Positions 7,263-39,665 of a DNA stretch of 64,000 bases are shown piece after piece. The notes beneath the pieces are model-generated. The model was not told the origin of the DNA and did no database searches. It saw only the letters and a list, made by a program, of their open reading frames with translations. Numbering within the stretch: the first letter of the stretch is position 1; each line of letters opens with the position of its first letter. The stretch lies in contig NZ_CP033365.1 of the NCBI RefSeq assembly GCF_013170825.1, positions 1,364,001 to 1,428,000 of the forward strand, given 5' to 3'. The translations under genes were made by a program, and so were the position numbers. The DNA comes from Mesorhizobium sp. NZP2298 (GTDB lineage Bacteria > Pseudomonadota > Alphaproteobacteria > Rhizobiales > Rhizobiaceae).

Positions 7263-7339
7263 GCAGGGCGGGAACTGACCTCCGGCCTGTGCTGTTACGG
7301 CACAGGAATCGGGTGTTCGATCAAAAAACTTCGGGGCTG

Positions 7340-7354
7340 TTAAAGGTTCATTAA
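7340..7354 (+). promoter_or_regulatory. CtrA-type box (TTAA-N7-TTAA) at the small RNA promoter
   Basis: TTAA at 7340-7343 and TTAA at 7351-7354 are separated by exactly seven bases, the CtrA consensus. The box overlaps the -35 position (TTCATT, 7347-7352) of the promoter whose -10 is TACTAT at 7369-7374. Binding is inferred from the match only. Confidence 0.6.
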
Positions 7355-7380
7355 GCTTTACAGGCGTTTACTATGTGCAT

Positions 7381-7476
7381 CCAGTGATCTGGATTCTTAC
7401 CGAGTGGTTGGAGCCACTTTGTTTGACGCCTCCCTGTTAAACTCCTGAGAGCCGCCTTATCCGCGGCTCTTTTTTT
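7381..7476 (+). ncRNA. Candidate trans-acting small RNA with CCTCC motif
   Basis: A promoter with -10 TACTAT (7369-7374) and weak -35 TTCATT 16 bases upstream predicts a start near 7381. The transcript would fold into a 5' hairpin (CCAG/CTGG, 7381-7392), a second hairpin (AGTGG/CCACT, 7403-7418), a single-stranded segment carrying GCCTCCC (7428-7434), and a Rho-independent terminator (8-bp perfect stem, 7448-7470, then seven T). A free anti-Shine-Dalgarno motif before a terminator is typical of alphaproteobacterial regulatory RNAs such as suhB/MmgR, EcpR1 or CcnA, but membership cannot be decided by eye. No open reading frame is supported here. Confidence 0.65.
7448..7476 (+). terminator. Rho-independent terminator of the small RNA
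   Basis: AGAGCCGC and GCGGCTCT form a perfect 8-bp stem with a seven-base loop, followed by an unbroken T run at 7470-7476. It lies far from the preceding gene's stop (7262), so it most likely ends the small RNA rather than that gene. Confidence 0.85.
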
Positions 7477-16345: not shown

Positions 16346-17656
16346 ATGAAATCAATCCTCAAGCCGCTCCTGATGATAGCAGCCATGGCCATGGGCATGA
16401 CGGCAGCCGGCACGCTACCGGCGCTGGCGCTCGTCGAGCTCAACGTCAACAAGGGCAATGTCGAGCCGCTGCCGATCGCGATCACCGATTTCCAGGGTGG
16501 CGATGCGCTTGGCGCCCAGATTTCCCAGATCGTCACCGCCGATTTGAAACGCTCCGGCCTGTTCGCGCCGATCGACAAGAGCGCCTTCATCGAGAAGATC
16601 ACCAATCCGGATGCCGCCCCCCGCTTCGACGACTGGAAGGTGATCAACGCGCAGGCGCTGGTCACCGGCAGCGTCAGCAAGGAAGCCGACGGCCGTATTC
16701 GCGCCCAGTACCGGCTTTGGGACACTTTTGCCGGCCAGCAGATGGCGGGCGAGCAGTTCTTCGCCAACGACGCCAACCAGCGGCGCGTCGCCCACATCAT
16801 AGCCGACGCCATCTACGAGCGGCTGACCGGCGAGAAAGGCTATTTCGATACGCGCGTGGTGTTCATCGACGAGTCCGGCGCCAAGAATGCGCGCAAGAAG
16901 CGCCTCGCCATCATGGACCAGGACGGCGCCAATGTCCGCTATCTCTCCGACGGCCGGTCGATCGTGCTGACACCGCGTTTCTCGCCGAACCGGCAGGAAA
17001 TCACCTATATGTCCTACGAGAGCGGCCAGCCGCGCGTCTATCTCCTGCAGATCGAAACCGGACAGCGCGAACTGGTCGGCAATTTCCCCGGCATGACGTT
17101 TGCGCCGCGCTTCTCGCCCGACGGCCAGAAGGTGATCATGAGCTTGCTGCGCGACGACGGCAATTCCAACATCTTCGCCATGGACCTGCGCAGCCGCTCG
17201 ACGACGCGGTTGACCAACTCGACCGCCATCGACACCTCACCCTCCTATTCGCCCGACGGCAGCAAGGTGGTGTTCACCTCCGACCGCGGCGGCCGCGCGC
17301 AAATCTATGTGATGGGCGCCGATGGCTCGGGCCAGACCCGCATCTCCTTCGGCGATGGCGTCTACTCGACGCCGGTGTGGTCGCCGCGCGGCGATCTCAT
17401 CGCCTTCACCAAGCAGACCGGCGGCGAATTCCAGATCGGTGTCATGAAGACCGACGGTTCGGGCGAGCGCATCCTGTCGTCCGGCTTCCAGCAGGAAGGG
17501 CCGACCTGGGCGCCGAATGGCCGCGTCTTGATGTTCTTCCGCGACGCCAATGGCGGACCGAAACTGGTTTCGGTCGATCTCACCGGCCGCAACGAACAGC
17601 CTATCCCGACCGCGAACTTCGCGTCCGACCCGGCCTGGTCGCCGCTGCTTGAGTAG
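16346..17656 (+). CDS. tolB: Tol-Pal beta-propeller protein TolB
   Basis: TolB is a periplasmic protein that competes with peptidoglycan for Pal. The 436-residue product has a signal peptide ([20 protein letters not shown]), an N-terminal domain with [20 protein letters not shown], and a six-bladed propeller with the recurring [15 protein letters not shown] type blade (for example [16 protein letters not shown] and [20 protein letters not shown]). The final DPAWSPLLE is the standard end, so the gene is complete. Its stop codon is the exact left boundary of the four-helix-bundle cassette. Confidence 0.96.
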
Positions 17657-17687
17657 GAATTGAAGAACTGAGGAACTGAGGAATGGA
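17656..17687 (+). repeat. Left 32-bp array of four 8-bp units (cassette end)
   Basis: Four consecutive 8-bp units read GGAATTGA, AGAACTGA, GGAACTGA, GGAATGGA. The first base is the last base of the tolB stop codon and the last unit contains the ATG of the four-helix-bundle gene; the GAGGA formed at the unit junction also works as its ribosome binding site. The array is the inverted partner (29 of 32 bases) of the one at 18070-18101. Confidence 0.85.
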
Positions 17688-18060
17688 GAAGCCGGGGCGC
17701 TTCGTCGAGCGCGCACGAGACTTGGAAGTCTACAAGCGCGCTTACTCAGCTTCTCTTGAGGTGCATCGAGCCACTCTTGGCTTTCCGAAAATTGAGCAAT
17801 ACGCACTGGCCGATCAGTTGCGCCGCTCGAGCAAAGCGATCTGCGCCAATCTGGCTGAAGGATTTGCCAAACAGAGCCACTCCAAAGCCGAATTTGCTCG
17901 TTTCGTTTCGATGGCGATCGGGTCATGCAGCGAAGTGGAGACGTGGATATCCTACGCGTTCGATCTTCAATACATCACGCCGTCCCAACTCCACACTTGG
18001 CGACAATCCTATGCCCAAATCCATGGGATGCTCGTGAGCCTTAGAGAGAGGCTGACCTGA
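17683..18060 (+). CDS. Four-helix bundle protein (23S rRNA intervening-sequence type)
   Basis: The 125-residue protein matches the IVP/S23-like four-helix bundle family: LEVYKRAYSASLEVHRATLG, then IEQYALADQLRRSSKAICAN, LAEGFAKQSHSKAEFARFVS and a final helix with SEVETWISYAFDL. Such proteins are encoded in rRNA intervening sequences and many intergenic cassettes; the function is unknown and homologues form pentamers resembling accessory variability proteins of diversity-generating retroelements. It interrupts the tolB-pal order and is framed by inverted 8-bp-unit arrays. Its composition is visibly more AT-rich than neighbouring tol genes, consistent with transfer. Confidence 0.85.
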   Translation: MEKPGRFVERARDLEVYKRAYSASLEVHRATLGFPKIEQYALADQLRRSSKAICANLAEGFAKQSHSKAEFARFVSMAIGSCSEVETWISYAFDLQYITPSQLHTWRQSYAQIHGMLVSLRERLT

Positions 18061-18069
18061 AGCCTTTCT

Positions 18070-18101
18070 TCAATTCCTCAGTTCTTCAGTTCCTCAATTC
18101 C
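18070..18101 (-). repeat. Right 32-bp array of four 8-bp units (cassette end)
   Basis: Read on the plus strand the units are TCAATTCC, TCAGTTCT, TCAGTTCC, TCAATTCC. In reverse complement they give GGAATTGA, GGAACTGA, AGAACTGA, GGAATTGA, aligning to the left array with three mismatches. The array starts nine bases after the gene's stop codon. A transcript through the cassette could fold the two arrays into a long stem around the gene. Confidence 0.85.
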
Positions 18102-18296
18102 CTCGTTCTTTCATGTTTTGGCCGCATTTCCGCCTAGGGTCCGCGCCAACTGTGGCCCGGATCAAAGAGGTTGCGGACGGGCAGCTAAACCAATTTTTAA
18201 CCGTGTTTCTTGAATGCCGGTTAACCCAAACGTGGTTACTGGGTGATCAACGAAATCACTCGAATACGATCACTCGCAATACGAAGGAGAGGCGGC

Positions 18297-18803
18297 ATGG
18301 GCCGTATCGCAGCACTTACCACAAACCCGGTCATGATCGCGCTGGTGGCGATGCTCGCCATCACCGGTTGCGCCTCCAAGAAGACTCCGAACAACGCCGC
18401 TGAGCTTGGCCTCAACGGCGCCGGTGCTGCAACGCCCGGTTCGGCGCAGGACTTCACCGTCAATATCGGCGACCGCATCTTCTTCGATACGGACTCGACC
18501 TCGATCAGGGCTGACGCACAGCAGACGCTTTCGCGCCAGGCGCAGTGGCTGAACCAGTACAAGCAGTATGCCATCGTCGTCGAAGGCCATGCCGACGAAC
18601 GCGGCACGCGCGAATACAATCTGGCGCTCGGTGCCCGCCGCGCCGCCGCCACCCGCGACTTCCTGGTCTCCAAGGGCGTGGCTTCCAGCCGCCTGAAGAC
18701 CATTTCCTACGGCAAGGAGCGTCCTGTCGCTGTCTGCGACGACATCTCGTGCTGGTCGCAGAATCGCCGCGCGGTCACCACGCTCAGCGGCGCCGGCTCC
18801 TGA
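18297..18803 (+). CDS. pal: Peptidoglycan-associated lipoprotein Pal
   Basis: Pal tethers the outer membrane to peptidoglycan. The 168-residue precursor has a lipobox LAITGC with the lipidated cysteine at residue 25, a short linker, and the OmpA C-terminal domain containing VEGHADERGTREYNLALGAR, the diaminopimelate-binding signature, and AVCDDISCWSQNRRAV near the end. The ATG at 18297 has AGGAGA eight bases upstream; a GTG at 18243 in frame would spoil the signal peptide. A Rho-independent terminator follows. Confidence 0.96.
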   Translation: MGRIAALTTNPVMIALVAMLAITGCASKKTPNNAAELGLNGAGAATPGSAQDFTVNIGDRIFFDTDSTSIRADAQQTLSRQAQWLNQYKQYAIVVEGHADERGTREYNLALGARRAAATRDFLVSKGVASSRLKTISYGKERPVAVCDDISCWSQNRRAVTTLSGAGS

Positions 18804-23941: not shown

Positions 23942-23978
23942 GAAAAAGCCAGCGAACCTTGCGGCTCGTGGGCCTTGT
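23942..23978 (-). terminator. Degenerate stem-loop downstream of the first Cys-repeat gene
   Basis: The segment is about 90% identical to the terminator of the neighbouring paralogue (24637-24668) but its stem has several mismatches. It lies just after the stop codon of the minus-strand gene at 23996 and probably ends its transcript weakly. Confidence 0.5.
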
Positions 23979-23995
23979 TGAGCTATTGCTGCCGA

Positions 23996-24448
23996 TCAGG
24001 TCTTCAGCTTGGCATTGCACAGGCTGTAATAGCCGCCACCCTTCTGGATCCACTTGAGGCCGCTCAACGTTCCGGCATCCTTGTTGCTATGGTAGCCTTG
24101 GAGGCAGGTCTTCATTCGCGCCTTGGCGGGTTTTTCGGCCTGAAATTCGGCCGCGAGCGTGGTCGGGAACGTCACGCCAGCCGGCGCTAAGGCGGGTGCG
24201 GTCGCCGCGCTGGCTTCCTTTTTCGGCTGTTGTGCCGCTTTGGCCGTGTTCGCCTCGGCACTTCCCGTAGCGGACGTTGCGCATTTATCCTTGCGGAAAG
24301 CGTTCCAGTCCATGCCGTTCAGGGTACCGCTTTCCTTGGCGGTCCGATAGGTCTCGCCGCATTCCTTCATCGTCATTGCGTTTCCCGGGATGGCACCCCA
24401 GGCAATAAAAGTCGTTGCAGCCAGCGCCGTCAATTTCAAGCCAGACAT
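23996..24448 (-). CDS. Secreted Cys-repeat protein of unknown function (short paralogue)
   Basis: A 150-residue protein with a signal peptide (GLKLTALAATTFIAWGAIPG) and two copies of a roughly 30-residue unit: a clear one (ECGETYRTAKESGTLNGMDW, then FRKDKC) and a degenerate C-terminal one (CLQGYHSNKDAGTLSGLKW, then YSLCNAKLK). Each unit has a Cys near its start and its end, so each could close one disulfide. I do not recognise a described family. The ATG at 24448 has GGAGG seven bases upstream. It is a paralogue of the gene at 24691. Confidence 0.7.
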   Translation of the reverse strand: MSGLKLTALAATTFIAWGAIPGNAMTMKECGETYRTAKESGTLNGMDWNAFRKDKCATSATGSAEANTAKAAQQPKKEASAATAPALAPAGVTFPTTLAAEFQAEKPAKARMKTCLQGYHSNKDAGTLSGLKWIQKGGGYYSLCNAKLKT

Positions 24449-24636
24449 CAAACCCTCCATATCGAGTACAGATTGAACATCTTTTGTATACTTTTTGTTC
24501 TTCTTATGTTCAACTGGAATCTTCTGCCTCACCCAGAAAACCTCCCGCACCCGGCTGCCGGGCGTGGGGCGACCACGCTATCGGTTCAAGGCCTTCGCGG
24601 TAGCGGAAGCAGGCCATTGAGCTTTCAACGCAACAA

Positions 24637-24668
24637 AAAGCCCGCGAACCTTGCGGTTCGCGGGCTTT
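24637..24668 (-). terminator. Strong Rho-independent terminator of the long Cys-repeat gene
   Basis: AAAGCCCGCGAACC and GGTTCGCGGGCTTT form a perfect 14-bp stem with a four-base loop; on the minus strand it ends in a T run. It follows the stop of the gene at 24691. Confidence 0.88.
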
Positions 24669-24690
24669 GTTTTTCAGATGCAGCTATCGA

Positions 24691-25533
24691 TCAGCCCTTC
24701 AGCTTGGCATTGCACAGGCTGTAGAAGCCGCCGCCCTTCTGGATCCACTTCAGGCCACCAAGCGCGTTGGCGTCCTTGAGGACATAGTATTGGTCGAGGC
24801 AGGTGTGCATGCGGCCCTTTCCCGGGGTCTCGCTGGCATATTTCGCCGAGATCGCGGACGGGAAGGTGACGCCCTTGGGGGCAACCGTCGTCGGCTTGGC
24901 CGGCTCCTTGGTGTAGCTTGCCTCGCTCGGAGCAGGCACGCTGTCGTCATCCGAGGCGGCGGCGCCGCATTCGGCCTTGCGGAAGTCGTTCCACTTCTGG
25001 CCCTTCAGCGTGTTCGCGGTCTTCGCAGCCTGATACTTGGCGCTGCACTCGGCCATGGTCAGGCCCTTGCCGCCATTGTCGGCGGCAGCCGCGGCGGCCT
25101 TGGTGGTTGCCGGCTTGGTGGTGTCGGCGGCGGCGGATGCGCCAGCGGCGCACTCGCTCTTGCGGAAGTCGTTCCACTTCTGGCCGTTCAGAGTGCCGGC
25201 GGCCTTGGCCGCCTGGTACTTGGCGCTGCATTCCTTGGCCGTCAGGCCTTTCGCGGCGCTGTTGTCAGCGGCCGCTGCCTTGGCAGCCTTGGCCGGCTTG
25301 GTCTCGGCGGCCTTCTTCGTGTCGGCCGGCTTGGTGTCCGTTGTGGCAGCCGCGTCGGTGCCGCACTGCGCCTTGCGGAACTGGTTCCAGGTCGCGCCAG
25401 CAAGTGTCCCCGCGTCCTTGGCCGCGTTATATTTCGTGCTGCACTCGGCCATCGTCAGCGCGTTGGCTGGCGCAGCCAGGAACAACGTCGCTACGGCGAG
25501 GCCGGTCAGAGTGGCAAATCGGTGGATGAGCAT
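24691..25533 (-). CDS. Secreted Cys-repeat protein of unknown function (long paralogue)
   Basis: A 280-residue protein with a signal peptide (LTGLAVATLFLAAPANA) and four copies of the same roughly 30-residue unit: residues about 28-57, 97-127, 158-188 and a degenerate C-terminal one near 240-280. The consensus is ECxxKYxAAKxAGTLxGxxW followed by NxFRKxxC. Ala/Lys/Thr-rich linkers separate the units, like beads on a string. The last 60 residues are nearly the same as in the short paralogue, so the pair arose by duplication with repeat gain or loss. Function is unknown; the composition suggests a periplasmic or exported protein. Confidence 0.72.
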   Translation of the reverse strand: MLIHRFATLTGLAVATLFLAAPANALTMAECSTKYNAAKDAGTLAGATWNQFRKAQCGTDAAATTDTKPADTKKAAETKPAKAAKAAAADNSAAKGLTAKECSAKYQAAKAAGTLNGQKWNDFRKSECAAGASAAADTTKPATTKAAAAAADNGGKGLTMAECSAKYQAAKTANTLKGQKWNDFRKAECGAAASDDDSVPAPSEASYTKEPAKPTTVAPKGVTFPSAISAKYASETPGKGRMHTCLDQYYVLKDANALGGLKWIQKGGGFYSLCNAKLKG

Positions 25534-29400: not shown

Positions 29401-29500
29401 TGCGTTTGAAATCACGCAATCCTGATCGCTGATCGCCGGTATCCCGGCAGCGACAAAAACTTTCCTCTTGACGCCCGAAGCCTGAACGCATATCGCCGTC

Positions 29501-29552
29501 CGTGGGCCACCCCTCCCCAACGAGGGGCCACTATCTGGAAGGATAGACCACG
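29501..29552 (+). promoter_or_regulatory. serC-type leader RNA with its promoter
   Basis: A promoter CTTGAC (29467-29472) and CATATC (29489-29494) predicts a start near 29501, directly at a hairpin in which GTGG (29502-29505) pairs with CCAC (29528-29531) and CCCCTC (29510-29515) with GAGGGG (29522-29527). GAAGGAT follows as the ribosome binding site. Alphaproteobacteria are known to have a conserved structure of this kind (the serC motif) before serC; membership here is judged by position and shape only. Its ligand or trigger is unknown. Confidence 0.6.
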
Positions 29553-39503: not shown

Positions 39504-39617
39504 CGAAACGCTCTAACGGGGTGCCGGACGCGATCTTTCGCGGACCGGCTGAGAGGCAGTCTCGCCAACCCGCTGAACCTGATCCGGTTTGTACCGGCGG
39601 AGGGATTAGACGTTTCG
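39504..39617 (+). promoter_or_regulatory. TPP riboswitch (THI element)
   Basis: The conserved parts are in the right order: closing stem CGAAACG (39504-39510) with CGTTTCG (39611-39617), ACGGGGTGC, the CTGAGAGG pyrimidine-sensor segment (39549-39556) and CTGAACCTGATCCGG with ACCGGCGGAGGGATT on the diphosphate side. It lies 48 bases before the thiB start, whose AAGGAGG (39654-39660) can be masked, so control of translation or of early termination is likely. Confidence 0.93.
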
Positions 39618-39665
39618 GACGGTCCGACGCCTCAATTCCTTGTCACGCGAACGAAGGAGGCGCCG

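Follow-up and report, generated by a model that had tools for sequence, protein, structure and literature searches.

The 125-residue gene located between tolB and pal in Mesorhizobium sp. NZP2298 is flanked by two mutually complementary arrays of 8-bp units. The arrangement probably represents an IVS-type mobile cassette that lives in an mRNA operon instead of 23S rRNA, with the arrays pairing as a processable RNA stem (probability of roughly 0.6). The same junctions occur empty, full, decayed or filled by forms that lack the gene, and from this distribution we infer that the cassette is mobile. The original prediction of a small mobile or RNA-based element is therefore supported, both by arrays at unrelated junctions and by the empty and full sites, with the processing of the RNA being predicted. 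The cassette appears to be part of a widespread, largely overlooked mobile family that includes the known inserts in rRNA genes.

The whole unit, consisting of octamers, gene and inverted octamers, spans 446 bp (Table 1). The units of the left array are, in order, GGAATTGA, AGAACTGA, GGAACTGA and GGAATGGA. The two arms are 91% complementary and are separated by 382 nt. The inverted flank-versus-flank score of the gene is 24.5, as compared to a mean of 8.45 and a maximum of 13 for 50 other scored ORFs of the window (the whole 64-kb stretch of DNA that was analyzed). The predicted layout, with inverted octamer arrays around the gene, a left array that begins on the last base of the tolB stop codon, and a final left unit that supplies the ATG, is confirmed in each of these points. 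The gene is also more AT-rich than its neighbors, as had been noted, with a GC content of 0.548 versus 0.638 for tolB and 0.647 for pal.

Table 1. Positions of the tolB-pal cassette and its neighbors in the window.
Feature	Positions	Strand	Remarks
tolB, 436 aa	16346..17656	+	upstream gene; TAG stop at 17654-17656, final base common to the left array
Left array, four phased 8-bp units	17656..17687	+	purine-rich; includes a putative Shine-Dalgarno sequence (17671-17682) and, in its last unit, the start codon of the gene (ATG at 17683)
Four-helix-bundle IVP gene, 125 aa	17683..18060	+	PF05635 / TIGR02436; intact ORF
Right array, inverted copy of the left array	18070..18101	+	pyrimidine-rich on the coding strand; 29/32 complementary
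Junction with the native tolB-pal spacer	18102..18130	+	T-rich stretch resumes (by eye)
pal	18297..18803	+	downstream gene

The RNA from 17645 to 18125 has a predicted folding energy of -186.2 kcal/mol (z -5.3), and none of 100 shuffled sequences is as good. In the predicted fold the two arrays are paired with each other and the start region is inside the stem, in keeping with the proposal that the transcript could fold into a stem embracing the coding region. The ORF folded alone has an unremarkable structure (z -1.0). No integrase, reverse transcriptase or transposase gene is found within the cassette. There is no Rfam match to rRNA in the window, and the cassette is located outside rRNA genes. 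Rfam matches in the window include a TPP riboswitch (39507-39622), a serC leader (29500-29551) and the alphaproteobacterial sRNA BjrC1505 (7333-7476). Elsewhere in the window, long direct repeats of two families, one of 204 nt present twice and one of 114 nt present four times (61-78% alike), occupy positions 23975-25465, downstream of an ORF that we take to be ftsH-like.

The protein matches the PF05635 (23S_rRNA_IVP) profile with 108.4 bits (cut-off 33.8) and the TIGR02436 (four helix bundle protein) profile with 104.8 bits (cut-off 24), and it is assigned to the four-helix bundles of the 2gsc type. The NCBIfam Avd equivalog gives 22.2 bits, below its cut-off of 80. Genome searches find only this one IVP gene in NZP2298.

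A search with the IVP protein over 150 genomes, NZP2298 included, gives matches in 80. The 30 best-matching loci, from NZP2298 and 29 relatives, are all at tolB-pal; 21 of them have a single intact frame, and in the other 9 the gene is split over frames. The arrays are kept in these carriers, but the number and the sequence of their units vary. Own partner arms pair better than permuted ones at this site (p 0.0012, 29 of 30 loci, phylogeny not removed). Together with 30 tolB loci, the carriers allow the state of the site to be scored in 47 genomes (one more, where pal was not found, was left out): 30 have the gene, 3 have a short two-array remnant, and 14 are empty. A comparison of close relatives for empty sites had been proposed as a check. 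The opposite outcome, a gene in all relatives with arrays diverged or absent, did not occur, as the arrays are kept and many relatives are empty. Two of the loci (L013 in genome G083 and L015 in G008) have an additional, incomplete IVP copy after the intact one, in a spacer of 821 nt.

A terminator-like hairpin can be recognized by eye in the tolB-pal gap of the 14 empty relatives, and it is not seen, also by eye, in the full loci examined. The cassette therefore seems to have replaced spacer sequence besides inserting. The position between tolB and pal stands as originally described, whereas the insertion seems not to be a pure one. In a comparison of 4 full with 7 empty loci, TolB has identical C-terminal residues.

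The IVP protein evolves under purifying selection, with a dN/dS of 0.084 among the 21 intact copies. The same copies have a median dS of 1.28, versus 0.47 for tolB and 0.41 for pal, a rise that may come in part from saturation or from a difference in codon bias. The rank correlation of dS is 0.53 between tolB and pal and only 0.21 between tolB and the IVP gene, to which saturation and codon bias may also contribute. On the tolB tree, the state of the site requires 15 changes, as compared to a mean of 14.1 for shuffled labels; the distribution is as patchy as that of shuffled labels.

These data bear on the alternative that the gene and its arrays are a vertically inherited regulatory unit domesticated for tolB-pal, in which the arrays are conserved for attenuation or processing. 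The identical position in every carrier scored, the purifying selection and the retained arrays would fit such a role. The scattered state on the tolB tree, the split frames, the remnants and empty sites, the poor agreement of the IVP history with those of tolB and pal, and the same architecture at unrelated junctions (see below) make it improbable, however. Purifying selection combined with scattered presence and decay instead suggests that the IVP protein is maintained while individual copies come, decay and go.

More distant IVP genes of Mesorhizobium occupy other gaps, flanked by arrays of other units. At nuoC-nuoD (best-matching 30 loci from 61 genomes searched), the distance between the nuoC stop and nuoD is 2-12 nt in 20 empty loci and 456-481 nt in 10 full ones, whose IVP cassettes belong mainly to two unit families. 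In the full loci, the left array begins at the nuoC stop. The 10 full loci encode a NuoC that ends in EKAKQ or EKANQ, and 6 of the 20 empty ones a NuoC that ends in EKAKQ; in the other 14 it is one residue longer than in the full loci, possibly reflecting a one-codon shift of the stop. Between an acyl-CoA dehydrogenase gene and mmsB (acd-mmsB, 30 loci), 16 loci are empty (23-29 nt), 10 are full, 3 are intermediate (73-84 nt) and 1 has arrays only. In this last locus (L303), GTAGTGA units directly abut CTACTGA units, with no gene. Upstream of an alpha-E-like gene (48 loci located of 50 given), 9 are empty (24 nt), 32 have short gene-less forms and 7 are full. About 9 of the 32 short forms, 91-97 nt in length, retain the right array only (by eye), among them that of NZP2298 (94 nt). 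Own arm partners in the short forms again pair better than permuted ones (p 0.007, with 12 of the 32 sharing core sequence and phylogeny not removed).

Presence and absence at orthologous sites, as known for transposons and MITEs, are thus seen at nuoC-nuoD and tolB-pal. The sequence of the array unit differs even between copies at one junction (nuoC-nuoD, acd-mmsB and alpha-E upstream). No consistent target duplication is apparent by eye across tolB-pal, nuoC-nuoD and acd-mmsB; a repeat at nuoC-nuoD could comprise no more than two nucleotides (GA), and at other sites the spacer is replaced. Homologous recombination of the flanks could cause the spread within the genus at one site.

To compare IVP genes across bacteria, 191 loci were pooled, of which 189 were located, 185 had 95-170 codons, 109 remained below 70% mutual identity, and 107 had enough flank. 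One of the locus sets comprises the best 80 of more, picked by conserved peptide patterns, and neighboring genes were called from open frames. The inverted flank score is at least 14 in 77 of these 107 non-redundant genes from several phyla, versus 1 of 198 neighboring ORFs and 2.7% of 1059 cross-paired flanks. The remaining 30 score below 14, and some of them have no visible arrays. When tandem periods from 4 to 12 are compared, 90 loci score best with 7, 10 with 8, and 3 with a multiple of 3. Arrays at both ends of homologues elsewhere, within unrelated flanks, had been named as support for a mobile cassette, and the 77 strongly inverted cases agree with this; a general lack of arrays around such homologues, which would have spoken against a cassette, is not observed, arrays being present at most other sites. 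The expectation of GGAAYTGA-type arrays proved too narrow, since the unit differs between elements and most units are 7-mers.

Arrays are found on both sides in 62 loci, and the 55 heptameric ones among these comprise 48 distinct unit classes; a conserved terminal sequence, as in transposons or MITEs, is therefore not present in this set. The left and right units of one element nevertheless agree at 5.9 of 7 positions, versus 3.8 for mismatched partners. The unit sequence is free while the two arms match, as a base-paired stem demands. In minimum free energy folds, the left flank pairs with its own right flank in 76% of cases and with that of another element in 50%, as compared to 24% for control ORFs. 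The value for foreign flanks makes RNA folding by itself weak evidence. It is very improbable that the arrays are neutral microsatellites, grown by polymerase slippage near AT-richer foreign genes. The number of units does vary strongly between relatives, and slippage is the cause to which the heptamer excess of bacteria has been ascribed (PMC4692102, in the sections considered here). Slippage, however, makes no inverted partner array of the same unit across a gene, and the near absence of inverted arrays around neighboring ORFs likewise largely contradicts this explanation.

In 66 loci the left array can be scored and the upstream ORF runs in the same direction. There the left array starts at a median of 1 nt from the upstream stop codon, and within 10 nt in 45 of the 66. 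Stop codons are frequent inside the arrays, which could produce such a short gap by ending the upstream frame themselves. Of the 15 arrays that have no stop codon at all, 12 still begin at most 10 nt from the upstream stop. In 38 of the 66 loci the entire stop precedes the array, with a gap of no more than 10 nt in 27; in the other 28, some of the arrays may themselves provide the stop and not have inserted after it. The right array ends at a median of 14 nt before the next ATG (56 loci). Junctions supported by best NCBIfam matches, in different phyla, include dnaK-dnaJ, fabH-fabD, pgk-tpiA, pyrH-frr and fabI-aroC, based on 150-residue fragments of the neighbors that mostly score below the whole-protein cut-offs. 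Further neighbors, as read from the sequence, are presumably lysS, argH-thiL, frr-uppS, nuoC-nuoD, mmsB, alpha-E, yebC-ruvC and accB. Two related cassettes in alphaproteobacterial MAGs (L158 and L164) occupy the adjacent junctions frr-uppS and pyrH-frr, possibly through a short-range shift of site.

Gene-less copies are also present away from IVP genes. NZP2298 has the octamer pair pattern at three more sites, where the two arms converge around a short loop. These miniatures have stable predicted hairpins (-35 to -80 kcal/mol) and lie between apparent convergent gene ends. The pattern is found in 60 of 88 members of the genus, and its reversed control in none of them. Among the places listed for 15 Mesorhizobium genomes, the clusters away from IVP genes are convergent in 23 cases, divergent or mixed in none, and on one strand in 16 (exact match). 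At two loci of NZP2298 (L399 and L400), array units enter the 3′ end of open frames, which are closed by the TGA of the unit (with tails like EELKN or EELRN); insertion may thereby recode C-termini.

The dispersal of such pairs, and their position where a shared sense transcript is not needed, favor an element that acts as DNA. The inverted arrays would then serve as terminal repeats or as a single-stranded DNA hairpin for a recombinase of the host or supplied in trans, in the manner of REP/RAYT, IS200/605 or MITEs, and the RNA stem would be incidental. We consider this unlikely. Units differ between elements, and even at a single junction, which makes a sequence-specific transposase unlikely; moreover, the cassette lacks a transposase gene and, by eye, a consistent target duplication.

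The IVP proteins at tolB-pal appear, from their sequences, to group with those borne by rRNA. The tree has 113 rows and few alignment columns, and its bootstrap values have not settled. A clade of 19 rows (support 100/94) contains 8 rRNA rows, 6 from tolB-pal and 5 others, and the surrounding group of 24 (96/79) contains all 10 rRNA-associated rows, two of which are identical and from one genome; one locus (L169) was scored as rRNA-associated from a 16S match on one side only. The other 97 of the 113 rows are at neither rRNA nor tolB-pal (BLAST with one 23S/16S probe). All six rRNA-borne loci checked (L131, L154 and L159-L162) lie inside 23S rRNA by Rfam and have inverted 7-mer arrays. Two proteins from MAGs labeled Rickettsiales (P0086 and P0104) share 76% and 70% identity with the tolB-pal IVP, which equals the closeness of some copies from Mesorhizobium, indicating either recent transfer or mis-binning.

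A link to abundant heptamer repeats is seen in the family of genome G364, where 35 of 79 genomes have an IVP gene. GGGANT units are present on both arms in 12 of 30 IVP loci, and about half of the 30 are in accB-accC (by eye). At least 5 matches of three GGGANTC units occur in 23 of the 35 genomes with an IVP gene versus 4 of the 44 without (Fisher p 1.5e-7, with relatedness not removed and overlapping matches included); G413, one of these 23 genomes, has more matches to the reversed control than to the pattern. The crystallized protein Xcc0516 (2gsc) is a close relative of the IVP proteins of this family.

The preferred reading, an IVS-type cassette in an mRNA operon, can be outlined as a series of steps. 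In the co-transcript the arrays would form a long stem by pairing, with the ORF enclosed and its start concealed. By analogy with rRNA IVSs, RNase III would cut this stem, and the cut may free the IVP message and separate the messages of the neighboring genes, making the insertion tolerable. The IVP protein, presumably an Avd-like oligomer, may bind the RNA of the element or its single-stranded DNA, and could help it to enter new sites at stop codons or between cistrons, acting in trans where a copy has no gene. Slippage of the repeats, constrained by pairing, would alter the unit while the stem is kept.

A broader proposal is attractive but should be regarded as tentative, with the odds slightly against it. 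IVP cassettes might form a distinct, bacteria-wide selfish class that inserts into rRNA helices and, within operons, at the stop codons of the genes, is defined by the Avd-like four-helix protein and by a stem of sequence-free, pairing 7/8-nt arrays, and mobilizes gene-less hairpins in trans. The classical 23S IVSs would be one branch of it, and a good part of the unexplained heptamer excess, such as GGGAATC in Xanthomonas, would be its footprint. Most sampled IVP genes are outside rRNA, many of them in tight junctions of core operons, which provides many tractable loci for tests. Arrays that are free in sequence and mutually complementary predict a common processing step at the RNA level, and the cassettes could be where heptamer repeat arrays of bacteria originate. 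They also point to a mechanism of mobility that needs no recognizable transposase inside the element. For annotation, genes for a 'four helix bundle protein' within operons are likely to be mobile passengers.

Several known systems can be compared with the cassette. MITEs and REP-RAYT elements are short non-coding hairpin derivatives scattered between genes, with a coding parent beside them. The dispersed hairpins beside a coding parent are alike here, but the IVP cassette has no transposase, fixed terminal sequence or consistent target duplication. Avd of the diversity-generating retroelements is another close system; the tolB-pal protein falls below the Avd equivalog cut-off, and its observed neighbors are tolB and pal.

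Two Xanthomonas genomes contain 186 and 183 GGGAATC repeats (Rehm et al. 2015, PMC4692102), and their convergent inverted pairs number 70 and 75. These are similar in being intergenic heptamer arrays with convergent inverted pairs close behind ORFs, but they are treated as G-quadruplex repeats, and an IVP gene is not mentioned in the sections of that paper considered here. The TAACTGA heptamers of Beggiatoaceae are 7-nt direct repeats in intergenic gaps just before start codons (MacGregor 2015, PMC4679880, in part). They differ in being almost all direct rather than inverted, and a term search of the main text finds no match to 'four helix', 'S23' or 'intervening'.

The closest resemblance is to the 23S rRNA IVSs with an S23/IVP ORF in Coxiella, Leptospira, Salmonella and others. 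The Coxiella IVS has a length of 428-444 nt and terminal inverted repeats that form a stem of about 28 bp, which is cut by RNase III in vitro, and heptameric direct repeats (GACAGAT) of strain-variable number are located upstream of its S23p ORF (PMC4990558). In the portions of that paper considered here, these repeats are not generalized to other elements, and the function and origin of IVS/IVP are called unclear. IVP ORFs are also described within 16S and 23S insertions of CPR bacteria (PMC11270868, in part). The tolB-pal cassette differs from the rRNA inserts in its location at a stop codon in an mRNA operon junction, its octamer unit and its gene-less derivatives. It shares with them the protein family, the size class and the terminal inverted repeats, and the rRNA-borne loci, with whose proteins those of tolB-pal appear to group, have inverted arrays as well.
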